Source: an uncultured Desulfobulbaceae bacterium
Lineage (GTDB): Bacteria; Desulfobacterota; Desulfobulbia; Desulfobulbales; CALZHT01
Reading direction: 5' to 3'
Length of the DNA: 50,029 bases
Assembly: GCA_945787445.1 (NCBI GenBank)
Contig: CALZHT010000043.1
Span: 1-50,029 of the forward strand
How positions within the stretch are numbered: position 1 is the first letter of the stretch; every line of letters starts with the position of its first letter. The notes beneath the pieces are model-generated. The model was not told where the DNA came from. It did no database searches and was given only the letters and a program-made list of their open reading frames with translations. Shown piece after piece: positions 37,494 to 42,118 of the stretch. The position numbers were made by a program, and so were the translations under genes.

Positions 37494-37694
37494 TCCTGAC
37501 AAATTTCAGCCCTACCATTTTCCGTTGCCATCATAGGTTCACCCTTGTTCTTGAACATGTGAAATCAACCATGCCGGAAAATAGTATATACCGGCGTGGT
37601 TAAAACATCTGCATGGCTAAAATGTTTCGTTGGCGATATACTTAACAAAATCGAATTACCACTACACCAGATGGAATTGAAACGGAGGTTACTG

Positions 37695-38798
37695 ATGCCT
37701 TTTTCTCTGCCTTCTTATATGCCGCCGGATTTCAGCAAACCGGATTTTTACAATGCCCCCATCGTGAAATTTAAACCGGTTCACCAACCGGGTGTAGCAC
37801 CGGACAACTACCATGCCACCTCGGTTTTTCCGGAATATTTCCAGGTCCGGCAAAACCAATGGCGGGTGCTCAAGGAGTCCCGCATGGACTGCGTGGTGGT
37901 TCTCAAAAAGGACGACTCCCTGATCGTCAAAGAATTTCGGCACCTCAATTTAGGCGATCGAGTTGCCTGTGGCCGCAGGGAAAACGGAGAGGATGGCATT
38001 TATGTCCATACCAATGGTTTCGATTTTCCGGATCAAAATAGCGATAAGTTCGCCTTTAGAACCTGTTTTACCCGGGAAACCTCTTTTTCCATTGACTACG
38101 ATAAACTTTATGAACTCATCGAATTTGAACGGCGCCACGGATTCATTCTCTGGGTCTTGGGGCCGGCGCTGGTCTTTGACCGGGATGCTCGTGACGCCTT
38201 CGCAGCTTTGGTTGAGAAGGGCTATGTACATGGCATGCTGGCCGGCAATGCTTTGCCGACCCATGATGTTGAAGGGGCCCTTTTCGGGACAGCCTTGGGA
38301 CAGGAACTGTATTCGAAACAGAGTGCCCCTCAAGGCCATTACAAACACCTGGACGCCCTTAATACGATTCGCGCCCTGGGGTCCATGCAAAAAGGGATTG
38401 AGAAAGAATTGATCAATGACGGAATCATGCGGGCAGTGATCAGCAAAGACATTCCCTATGTGCTTGCCGGTTCCATTCGCGATGATGGCCCTCTGCCGGA
38501 AGTAATTGAAAATGTCTATCTGGCACAGGACCGGATGCGCACCTTGACGCGCCAGGCGACCACTGTCATCACCCTGGCTACCCAACTGCATGCCATCGCC
38601 ACCGGCAACATGATACCCTCATATACTGTTATTAAAGAAAAACAGGTGCGTCCCGTCTATTTCTATTCCGTGGACATGTCGGAGTTTGCGGTCAGCAAAC
38701 TGGCCAACCGGGGATCCCTGACCGCCAGGGCGATACTCACCAATGTTCAGGATTTCGTGGTCACGCTGGAACGGGGACTCAAAAAGAGGATCGGATGA
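37695..38798 (+). CDS. ornithine cyclodeaminase of the TIGR00300 (archaeal/AgrE C-terminal) type
   Basis: This protein of about 367 residues is similar to the LOR/SDH-like enzymes shown in Methanococcus and in cyanobacterial ArgZ/AgrE to convert ornithine to proline and ammonia with bound NAD. The N-terminal 110 residues form a small domain; the C-terminal NAD-binding part has LAGNALPTHDVEGALFGTALG, VLAGSIRDDGPLPEVIENVY, TLATQLHAIATGNMIPSY and SVDMSEFAVSKLANRGS. ATG 37695 has a clear GGAGG site, so the upstream residues to 37596 are excluded. Its end overlaps the convergent carbamate kinase gene by 20 bases. Confidence 0.8.
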   Translation: MPFSLPSYMPPDFSKPDFYNAPIVKFKPVHQPGVAPDNYHATSVFPEYFQVRQNQWRVLKESRMDCVVVLKKDDSLIVKEFRHLNLGDRVACGRRENGEDGIYVHTNGFDFPDQNSDKFAFRTCFTRETSFSIDYDKLYELIEFERRHGFILWVLGPALVFDRDARDAFAALVEKGYVHGMLAGNALPTHDVEGALFGTALGQELYSKQSAPQGHYKHLDALNTIRALGSMQKGIEKELINDGIMRAVISKDIPYVLAGSIRDDGPLPEVIENVYLAQDRMRTLTRQATTVITLATQLHAIATGNMIPSYTVIKEKQVRPVYFYSVDMSEFAVSKLANRGSLTARAILTNVQDFVVTLERGLKKRIG

Positions 38799-39726
38799 TT
38801 TCGGTTCCGGCCTGGCCTCTAACCCCTCTATTTATATCATCAATGGAAGCAATGACCGCTCGCATGCCGCCGGCCCGGATAAACCGCATGGCCGCTTCTA
38901 CTTTAGGCGCCATGGAACCAGGGGGAAAATGGCCTTCCCCTAGATTGCGATCCGCTTCTGCCAATGTCATGGAACGCAGAAATTTCTGGTCTGCTTTGCC
39001 GAAGTTAAGGGCCGCACCTTTTACGTCCGTAGCTATGAGAAAAATATCCACGCCCACTTCCTCGGCCAGTTTGGCGCTGGCCAGATCCTTATCTATTACT
39101 GCATCCACCCCTGAAAAAGTCCTCCCTTCCCGGACCACGGGGATGCCGCCGCCGCCGCAGCAGATGACAATGAAATCCATATTTATGAGATTGCTTATTT
39201 CACGCTTCTCAACAATGGTTACAGGTTCGGGTGAGGCCACCACCCGCCGGTATCCTTTTGCGGTTTTCCGGGTCGGAAAAGGAGCAGTCGCGGCTTCTTC
39301 TGGCGTGTAGATGGGGCCTATCGGTTTTACAGGCTGCTGGAATGCAGGATCCTTTTCATCAACCACCACGTAGCTGATAAGACTTACCAGGTTCTGGGTA
39401 ATACTCGCCCCTGATGCCATGAATTCGCTGTCCAAGGTTGATTCGATCATGTAGCCGATCTGCCCCTGGGTTTGGGCCACCAGAATTTCCAGGGGCAGCT
39501 TCGGAACCTCTGCGTTACATTCCTGCTGCAGGAGCAGATTGCCTACCTGGGGGCCGTTGCCGTGGGTGATAATGATCCGGTAGTCGCGGGAAAGTTCGGC
39601 AATCTGTTTAATAGGAAGCTTCAGATTGGCAAACTGCTGTTCTATCGAGCCCTGCTGACCTTTGCGAATCAGGGCATTGCCGCCAAGGGCCACCAGAAGA
39701 ATTTTTTTGTCGCGCGCATTTTCCAT
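38779..39726 (-). CDS. arcC: carbamate kinase
   Basis: Carbamate kinase makes ATP and carbamate from carbamoyl phosphate and ADP, or the reverse. The 315-residue protein has the amino-acid-kinase start LVALGGNALIRKGQQGS, ITHGNGPQVGNLLLQQE, GYMIESTL, ICCGGGGIPVV, and the C-terminal GSMAPKVEAAMRFI typical of ArcC. It follows the COG2403 protein by nine bases in the same transcript. No ornithine carbamoyltransferase or arginine deiminase gene is in the window, so the source of carbamoyl phosphate is not shown here. Confidence 0.95.
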   Translation of the reverse strand: MENARDKKILLVALGGNALIRKGQQGSIEQQFANLKLPIKQIAELSRDYRIIITHGNGPQVGNLLLQQECNAEVPKLPLEILVAQTQGQIGYMIESTLDSEFMASGASITQNLVSLISYVVVDEKDPAFQQPVKPIGPIYTPEEAATAPFPTRKTAKGYRRVVASPEPVTIVEKREISNLINMDFIVICCGGGGIPVVREGRTFSGVDAVIDKDLASAKLAEEVGVDIFLIATDVKGAALNFGKADQKFLRSMTLAEADRNLGEGHFPPGSMAPKVEAAMRFIRAGGMRAVIASIDDINRGVRGQAGTEIIRSSF

Positions 39727-39735
39727 AATTATCGA

Positions 39736-41052
39736 TCACCTCTGCAAGAGGGGAAGGAGAACTTCTGCCAAAGTTGGTGTGCTGTGGTCCCGGTAATCAT
39801 AGCGTACCCGCAGGGAAGGCTTTCCAATGGACAGAATGCGGGGAAGATGCATGGGAGTGGCAAAGAGGACCAGATCGCATTCAACATTGCGGATGGTCTG
39901 CTCCAGGTCGAAAATCTGCTGAGTATGATAGCCCATGGCCGGCAGCACCGCATCAATATGGGAGTATTTTTGGAAGGCCTCCTTGATCATTCCCACGGCA
40001 AATGGACGAGGGTCGACAATTTGGGCCGCTTCATATTTTTCAGCAGCGCGCATCCCGGCACCGGAGGGCATTCCGCCGTGGGTAAGGGTTGGACCGTCTT
40101 CGACAACTAAAACACGTTTGTGGCGAATCAGTTCGGGGCGGCTTACCAGCACGGGTGATTCAGCCAGAATGATTTCAGCTTTAGGTGCATGGTGCTCGAT
40201 ATTGCGTCTGACCTGGTTCACCTGGTCCGAGTCGGAAGAGTCAACCTTGTTGATAACAGCGATATCAGCCATCAGCATATTGGTCTCACCCGGATAATAA
40301 AGCAATTCATGTCCGGGCCGATGCGGATCAAAAAGCACGATATGGACATCAGGAAAAAAGAACGGCGTATCGTTATTCCCTCCATCCCAGATAATGATGT
40401 CGCCTTCTGTTTCCGCCATTTTCAGGATCTGTTCGTAATCGATTCCCGCATATACCACTACTCCCTGCTCCACCAGGGGTTCATATTCTTCCCTTTCCTC
40501 AATGGTGCATTGCTGTTTGTCGAAATCAGCAAAAGACGAAAAGCGCTGCACCACCTGTTTTCTCAGGTCGCCATAGGGCATGGGGTGGCGAACGACCACG
40601 ACATTTTTGCCCTTTCCCTTAACGATCTCGCAGACTTTACGGGTTGTTTGTGATTTCCCGCATCCCGTCCTTACCGCACAGACCGCCACCACGGTTTTGG
40701 AGGATTGCAGCATGGTATAGGTGGCGCCAAGGAGGATGAAGTCCGCCCCGTTTGCCATGGCAATGGCGGATTTATGCATGACTTCCAAATGGGGAACATC
40801 ACTATAGGAAAAGGCCACCAGGTCGACCTTGTGCAAGTGGATCAGATCGGCAAGATCCTCTTCCGGATGGATGGGTATTCCCTTGGGGTAGGCTTCGCCG
40901 GCCAGTTCCGGAGGGTAGAACCGGCCCTCGATATCCGGTATCTGGGCCGCGGTAAAGGCGACAACCCGGTAGCGTGGATTGTTCCTGAAATACACGTTGA
41001 AATTATGAAAATCCCGGCCGGCCGCCCCCATGATAATGACGTTTTCGATCAT
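39736..41052 (-). CDS. COG2403 P-loop protein (cyclic 2,3-diphosphoglycerate synthetase-like)
   Basis: The 438-residue protein has a Rossmann-like N-terminus (IMGAAGRDFHNFNVYFRNN), then a P-loop GCGKSQTTRKV (about 155-166), DGGNNDTPF and NKVD (about 288-291), the guanine-type motif of G3E-like GTPases. Members of COG2403 include cyclic 2,3-diphosphoglycerate synthetase of Methanothermus, but many bacterial ones sit with carbamate kinase and have no proven function. GTP use is suggested by NKVD. It is the first gene of the pair with arcC. Its ATG at 41052 has a GGAG-like site. Confidence 0.75.
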   Translation of the reverse strand: MIENVIIMGAAGRDFHNFNVYFRNNPRYRVVAFTAAQIPDIEGRFYPPELAGEAYPKGIPIHPEEDLADLIHLHKVDLVAFSYSDVPHLEVMHKSAIAMANGADFILLGATYTMLQSSKTVVAVCAVRTGCGKSQTTRKVCEIVKGKGKNVVVVRHPMPYGDLRKQVVQRFSSFADFDKQQCTIEEREEYEPLVEQGVVVYAGIDYEQILKMAETEGDIIIWDGGNNDTPFFFPDVHIVLFDPHRPGHELLYYPGETNMLMADIAVINKVDSSDSDQVNQVRRNIEHHAPKAEIILAESPVLVSRPELIRHKRVLVVEDGPTLTHGGMPSGAGMRAAEKYEAAQIVDPRPFAVGMIKEAFQKYSHIDAVLPAMGYHTQQIFDLEQTIRNVECDLVLFATPMHLPRILSIGKPSLRVRYDYRDHSTPTLAEVLLPLLQR

Positions 41053-41127: not shown

Positions 41128-41799
41128 TTATTTTTTAGGCCTTTGCACTGCTATGGCTGCACTGACAAGGACATCGATATCTATGCGCACCGCATAATCG
41201 GGATTTACATATTGGAATTGTATAATGCCATCTGTCCCAATAATATAAACTGCCGGCACCGGTAGGACATGATCGGCTTCCCCGGAAGCATCCTCAATTG
41301 ATATGCCTTTTTCTTTGTACATTGTATTTAATGGATCACTGAGCGTAAAGGCAATGCCGTATGCTTTAGCTGCAATCTTTTTGCTGTCTGAAAGTAAAAC
41401 ATAGCTGTATTTCTTCTCTTCCATGAGCTGCTTGGTTCGTTCCGGCAGGTCCGGACTGATGGCAATTATCTGGTATCCTAATTCTGCCACGTGCTGCTCT
41501 TTTTCTTGTAGTTGACCCAACTGCGAAATACAGTAATGTCACCAAGCACCGCGATAAAAAACCAGGATTGTCGGTTTGTTCACTATGGCCCCATGTAGAT
41601 CAAATGGCTTTCCATCAGCGGTACGCAAAGCTATTTTTGGCGCTTTGGCTCCAATTAATAAGGGACATATGGTTTCAGCAGAGGCAGGAATTGTATTGTC
41701 CGTCTGCTTGGAGTCCTTGCTGTGAGCAATTGGAAGGGCGATGATTATGAATAAAAGAAGAGCGAGTGCGATTTTCAAGCCTTGCCTTTTTTGCGTCAT
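41128..41799 (-). CDS. peroxiredoxin-like thiol-disulfide protein with selenocysteine (in-frame TGA)
   Basis: Two adjacent open frames are joined in phase through TGA at 41541-41539 to give 223 residues. An N-terminal signal (IALALLLFIIIALPIAHS) exports the protein. The sequence then reads GAKAPKIALR, LVFYRGAW-U-HYC, QLGQLQEKEQHVAELGYQIIAISPD and VPAVYIIGTDGIIQFQYVNPDY, an AhpC/TSA fold in which the usual FYRGxWCPYC gives a UxxC site with Sec87 replacing the first cysteine. A SECIS-like hairpin follows the TGA (41510-41522). ATG 41799 has an AAAGGAGGA site. Without Sec, translation would stop after residue 86. Confidence 0.85.
41510..41522 (-). promoter_or_regulatory. bacterial SECIS-like hairpin after the UGA
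   Basis: On the minus strand AGTTG-GGT-CAACT forms a five-pair stem with the apical loop GGU. The loop begins 21 bases after the UGA, within the 16-37 base window of the bacterial SECIS consensus, and the first two loop bases are G as that consensus requires. It overlaps the coding sequence of the selenoprotein. The stem is short and its lower part imperfect. Confidence 0.6.
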
Positions 41800-42118
41800 T
41801 ATTATTCCTCCTTTATGATATTAACGATTCATTTCTTTTATACGAAATTATAGGCATAGGTTGCCATGTCAACTCAAAGAAAAATTAGATATCAACCTGG
41901 AATGAACTAATTTAGGCCAACTAGTAGCAGTTACAAGAGGTTATTTCTTTGCCCATGTTTTAGAGATGCCCTTAAGATGATTATCAGGCTTGCTCAAAAA
42001 CAAAAGAAATTGAAAGCTGATAGTATGATTTTATAGGTTCGGATTGCACAGAGAATTAGAACGTGACATTGTATATTTTCCATGCTTTTCTGGTAATATC
42101 ATAATAAAAGGTAGAAAA
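41800..42118. other. intergenic region between selenoprotein and outer-membrane barrel gene
   Basis: This is 319 bases of A/T-rich sequence between divergent genes. On the minus strand, TTGACA at 41872-41867 is followed after 16 bases by TAATTT (41850-41845), with TATAAT two bases nearer, a possible promoter of the selenoprotein gene. I see no repeat or small gene; the open frame from 42044 is an upstream extension of the barrel gene. Confidence 0.4.

Follow-up and report, generated by a model that had tools for sequence, protein, structure and literature searches.

The stretch of 50,029 nt analysed here (the window; contig CALZHT010000043.1 of an uncultured Desulfobulbaceae bacterium) very probably carries, at 41128-41799 on the minus strand, a functional selenoprotein gene whose product would be an exported, thiol/disulfide-type redox protein built around selenocysteine (Sec) at residue 87. 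Read from 41799 to 41128, a single frame comprises an ATG at 41799, 86 codons, a TGA at 41541-41539, a further 136 codons and a TAA at 41130-41128, and the TGA is its only interruption. With this TGA as Sec, the 223 codons before the stop specify a 223-residue protein (MTQKRQGLKIALALLLFIIIALPIAHSKDSK...FYRGAWUHYCISQLGQ...QFQYVNPDYAVR...), and a strong Shine-Dalgarno sequence, aaaggaggaataataATG, precedes the ATG. An earlier reading of the DNA letters alone (the original prediction) had described two frames in one phase parted by a single TGA, with FYRGAW before it and HYC after it; the translation bears this out at the same coordinates, and our analysis adds that the coding strand is the minus strand. 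An open reading frame (ORF) finder without recoding splits the gene into 86 and 130 residues, as plain ORF finders do with selenoprotein genes of this kind. The plus-strand reading of the interval contains numerous stops and was rejected as noncoding. An alternative genetic code was ruled out, because TGA is the normal stop of 11 of the 27 non-overlapping window ORFs of at least 200 residues; the recoding is therefore local. A scan of the whole window for open-TGA-open frames detected no other case clear of longer ORFs.

The search of related genomes returned matches containing exactly one internal TGA, which falls on query residue 87 where aligned. Of 61 aligned family members, 44 have TGA and 17 have Cys at residue 87, with no third alternative, and Cys90, R83, G84 and W86 are invariant across the same 61. 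The codon is TGA in five close relatives from other genomes of the phylum (L034, at 50% identity, L062, L065, L066 and L067) and in 38 more distant ones, nearly all of these 43 from other genomes. Cys occupies the position in L035, a close relative in the same phylum, and in forms from Marinicella, Lacimicrobium and other Gammaproteobacteria at approximately 37-44% identity. In pairwise comparisons with six relatives, divergence after the TGA was 0.65-0.70 at third codon positions and 0.29-0.46 at positions 1 and 2, and the part before the TGA showed the same third-position excess. The excess downstream of the TGA indicates that this half is under purifying selection and is translated as protein. 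The original prediction had asked whether homologues carry Cys or UGA at residue 87 and had named random stops without downstream conservation as the pattern that would speak against it; the homologues carry one or the other, and protein-level conservation continues beyond the TGA.

The host genome (G000; 4.46 Mb, 95.6% complete) encodes the machinery for Sec decoding. The selA, selB and selD genes each score above the curated cut-off, and the tRNA-Sec gene, selC, scores 71.5 bits against a cut-off of 47, so that all four genes whose absence would have counted against the original prediction are present. The selD gene (L032:1402-2487, minus strand) also encodes a selenoprotein: its frame contains one TGA, at GLARTCGUAAKIG, where selenophosphate synthetase is known to carry Sec.

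The N-terminus of the protein, judged by inspection and hydropathy, resembles a signal peptide, with a basic start, a long hydrophobic run and a type I AHS/K cleavage-like site; signal cleavage is likely after S27. No lipobox is present, and from its sequence the protein is not a lipoprotein. The highest 12-residue hydropathy is 3.45 here and 1.9 to 3.0 in L065-L067, L035 and the gammaproteobacterial forms, and it is at most 1.38 in every member of the cytosolic clade described below. The predicted export thus gains support from the protein's own N-terminus and from those of most members of its clade.

The protein matches the AhpC-TSA family (PF00578; 1.4e-25, 90 bits against a cut-off of 26). 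Its AlphaFold model, built from an alignment of 13 sequences in which Cys stood in for Sec, has a predicted local distance difference test score of 82 overall and at least 88 in each ten-residue block from residue 51 to 200. The best PDB matches of the model are peroxiredoxins, namely Bcp4 (3hjp; Z 22.7, root-mean-square deviation 1.9, 158 aligned residues), and AhpE matches with Z 21.9. Residue 87 lies directly before helix 88-99 and behind strand 77-81 of the model, which is the thioredoxin active-site position. The classical peroxiredoxin signature PxxxTxxC and the catalytic Arg are not kept in alignments to 3hjp and 2cx3: the HMMER alignments place R83 at the signature Pro, Sec87 at Thr/Ser and P182 at the Arg, and the one to 2cx3 pairs Cys90 with the peroxidatic Cys. 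The LPxPA sequence at residues 179-183 is conserved across the family, and LPVPA here is a probable thioredoxin-type cis-Pro loop. A UxxC motif opposite a Pro loop is arranged as in thioredoxin-type disulfide reductases. Since the Pro, Thr and Arg positions of peroxiredoxins are replaced and UxxC and the VPA loop are left, disulfide chemistry is favoured over peroxide chemistry, and on these sequence grounds a periplasmic selenol-disulfide reductase seems likelier to us than a classical peroxidase. The label peroxiredoxin-like in the original prediction accordingly fits the fold and is no proof of peroxidase function. A true periplasmic Sec peroxidase of the PrxQ/BCP kind, in which Sec87 or Cys90 would reduce H2O2 or alkyl peroxides, is a possible but weaker alternative: the fold is closest to Bcp4 and AhpE and Cys90 stands on a peroxidatic Cys, but the three replacements are conserved family-wide, and the known family is catalogued as a thiol:disulfide oxidoreductase, a role that is itself a prediction (PMC9312934, PMC13188914).

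In the disulfide reductase that we prefer, the UGA at codon 87 would be decoded as Sec by SelB and tRNA-Sec, and the N-terminal signal sequence would take the product out of the cytoplasm, where it would adopt a peroxiredoxin-type thioredoxin fold. Whereas the reading frame and the signal-like N-terminus are computed features, we infer the actual insertion of Sec and the export. Located where the active-site helix starts, Sec87 would act as the nucleophile on an oxidised substrate outside the cytoplasm, most likely a disulfide and possibly a peroxide; Cys90 would resolve the intermediate through an Se-S bond, which a DsbD/CcdA-type electron carrier would re-reduce. Genome G000 encodes three DsbD/CcdA-type transmembrane proteins that could be the electron source; both this reductant and the substrate are what we infer rather than compute. 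An extra cysteine, Cys45, may join the redox cycle; of the seven members that this phylum contributes to the clade, six have it, and most gammaproteobacterial members have Thr there. More speculatively, the gene may belong to a mostly periplasmic, undescribed branch of peroxiredoxin-like (Prx-like) UxxC proteins, sporadic in a largely anaerobic phylum and represented by Cys versions in Gammaproteobacteria; in this branch, a Sec87/Cys90/Cys45 relay would reduce disulfides or peroxides outside the cytoplasm.

Several observations weigh against an exported selenoprotein of this type. The active site is U-H-Y-C here and U/C-P-[YF]-C in almost all relatives, so that H88 departs from a near-invariant P88, and residue 85 is Ala here and Gly in every other member of the protein's own clade (window 41536-41547). 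Two of the six Sec forms in the clade, L034 and L062, have no visible signal peptide. No conserved partner gene was found, in line with the original prediction, which saw no obvious partner: the neighbourhoods of six relatives share only the selenoprotein gene with the window, and the other shared matches were ORFs antisense to this gene and one set among three loci. The remaining points concern the hairpin downstream of the UGA. The published model of the bacterial Sec insertion sequence (bSECIS) has an apical loop of 3-9 nt with G in the first two positions, a stem of 4-16 bp, a distance of 16-37 nt from the UGA and a minimum free energy of at most -7.5 kcal/mol (PMC13188914); we applied these constraints in a script, in place of bSECISearch. 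The hairpin has a 5-bp stem, AGUUG/CAACU (41522-41518 / 41514-41510), and a GGU loop (41517-41515), 21 nt past the UGA. Its energy, approximately -2 to -5 kcal/mol according to how much flanking sequence is folded with it, misses the limit, and 285 of 500 synonymous recodings were equally stable, so that the hairpin is not significant for this gene alone. Thus, of the GGU-loop hairpin at a suitable distance that had been proposed, the geometry stands, while the energy is weak and at chance level.

Synonymous recoding was used as the control because dinucleotide shuffles and slid codons pass the published constraints in 36-45% of cases and are poor controls for such elements. Plain folding of the 62-nt stretch gave z = -0.19, with another hairpin as the lowest-energy fold. 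Across the family, the hairpins after the TGA averaged -10.0 kcal/mol in 46 TGA genes versus -3.6 for synonymous recodings, and the 17 Cys genes gave -1.9 versus -2.2 kcal/mol. The QLGQL codons are CAG TTG GGT CAA CTA here and CAA TTG GGA CAA TTG in L034, the closest Sec relative; these synonymous, compensatory differences convert one stem G-C pair to A-U, and a single such pair is suggestive only. Taken alone, the candidate element of this gene is suggestive and not convincing.

The weak hairpin and the C that follows the UGA would also suit a UGA that is partly a stop, giving an 86-residue exported fragment under selenium shortage and making Sec insertion a selenium-dependent switch. Sec decoding is generally inefficient in bacteria, which adds to this case. 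However, such a fragment would lack most of the fold and shows no sign of conservation as a product, and we consider this explanation improbable. A pseudogene, or a sequencing error from TGC or TGT, is barely credible: TGA is one base from either codon and the local hairpin is weak, but the same codon is TGA in the five close and 38 distant relatives, the Sec machinery is present, the 223 codons are otherwise undamaged, and selection acts downstream of the TGA.

Catalogue entries for Prx-like UxxC selenoproteins go back to 2005. The catalogued Prx-like thiol:disulfide oxidoreductase (PF00578, UxxC), represented by WP_010940744.1 (PMC9312934, PMC13188914), is the same family as the Prx-like protein of PMC1088965 and Prx-like 1 of PMC2398784, and PMC1794560 lists Prx-like selenoproteins from Deltaproteobacteria, Geobacter, Syntrophus and Desulfotalea among them. 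The protein described here shares PF00578 and UxxC (U87-H-Y-C90) with that family, an assignment by domain and motif, and the homology link rests on members from genomes of the same phylum. It differs in belonging to a separate clade (support 99/93), whose members mostly have signal peptides and an FxYVxPD-type tail, whereas nearly all UxxC members that our searches found outside this clade look cytosolic. The best NCBIfam match is the SelL-related redox protein NF040769 (2e-13, residues 52-213), at 50.3 bits against a curated cut-off of 120, so that by this model the protein is not a member; none of the curated NCBIfam selenoprotein models reaches its cut-off, and the 99/93 clade is not covered by them. 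Peroxiredoxin Q/BCP (Bcp4 3hjp, 2cx3) and AhpE resemble it in fold but have the PxxxTxxC and catalytic Arg that are absent here. It resembles the periplasmic thiol-disulfide oxidoreductases ResA and TlpA, which match residues 50-150 in sequence, in its predicted export, in a redox pair two residues apart at a helix start and in a Pro-containing loop ahead of the next strand, but overall it is nearer to peroxiredoxins in sequence and structure. The literature that we covered on Prx-like UxxC selenoproteins, into which subscription papers mostly did not fall, mentions no exported branch, and the clade looks like an undescribed exported branch of a known selenoprotein family. An exported selenol would be a highly reactive group that must stay reduced outside the cytoplasm, and the gammaproteobacterial Cys forms offer a natural pair for asking what Sec buys.

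The maximum-likelihood tree, which contains duplicate rows since the neighbourhood loci repeat six genes, splits the family into two supported groups. The 99/93 group brings together this protein, its five close relatives with Sec, L035 and the Cys forms from Gammaproteobacteria; the 99/98 group is the cytosolic type and includes L028, a second Sec gene of genome G000. The tree requires six Sec/Cys switches, and supported branches make five of these unavoidable. In a search of 258 genomes from the same order, the exported type was found at E 1e-30 in this genome only, and two others matched at approximately 34% only. The occurrence is patchy, with horizontal transfer as a plausible explanation. 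The GC content of the gene is 38-43%, compared with 50-54% in the downstream genes; composition as a mark of recent transfer was rejected, because the genes on its opposite flank are low in GC as well and the gene is not singled out. The paralogue L028 (G000:C28:50709-51215) is of the general type of the known Prx-like UxxC selenoproteins, with FYRGVWUPYC and a stronger SECIS-like hairpin. Two distant TGA-containing relatives from the same phylum have additional regions, a long C-terminal extension in L061 and an N-terminal membrane region in L060.

Table 1. Positions in the window of the selenoprotein gene and its features
Feature	Positions	Strand	Basis
Ribosome-binding site region AAAGGAGGAATAATA, upstream of the ATG	41800..41815	-	sequence
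Selenoprotein gene; PF00578 domain, residues 49-195	41128..41799	-	translation, Pfam, homologues
Signal-peptide-like N-terminus: KRQGLK, IALALLLFIIIALPI, AHS	41719..41799	-	sequence, hydropathy
Cys45, in ICPLLIG motif	41665..41667	-	alignment
In-frame UGA as predicted Sec, residue 87, first position of UxxC	41539..41541	-	TGA/Cys in 61/61 aligned relatives
Cys90, UxxC partner of Sec87	41530..41532	-	invariant, 61/61
Candidate bSECIS upper hairpin AGUUG-GGU-CAACU	41510..41522	-	geometry fits published model
LPVPA loop, residues 179-183, where peroxiredoxins have the catalytic Arg	41251..41265	-	alignment, model

On the same strand, 75 nt downstream of the selenoprotein gene, lies a gene for a 438-residue protein without a Pfam match at the threshold used, which is presumably cyclic 2,3-diphosphoglycerate synthetase-like. 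It is followed by a member of the amino acid kinase family, probably a carbamate kinase. Neither of these neighbours is a redox partner. The same region (window 37596-41052) also holds an ArgZ-like arginine dihydrolase domain, and the adjoining genes suggest an arginine catabolism locus.
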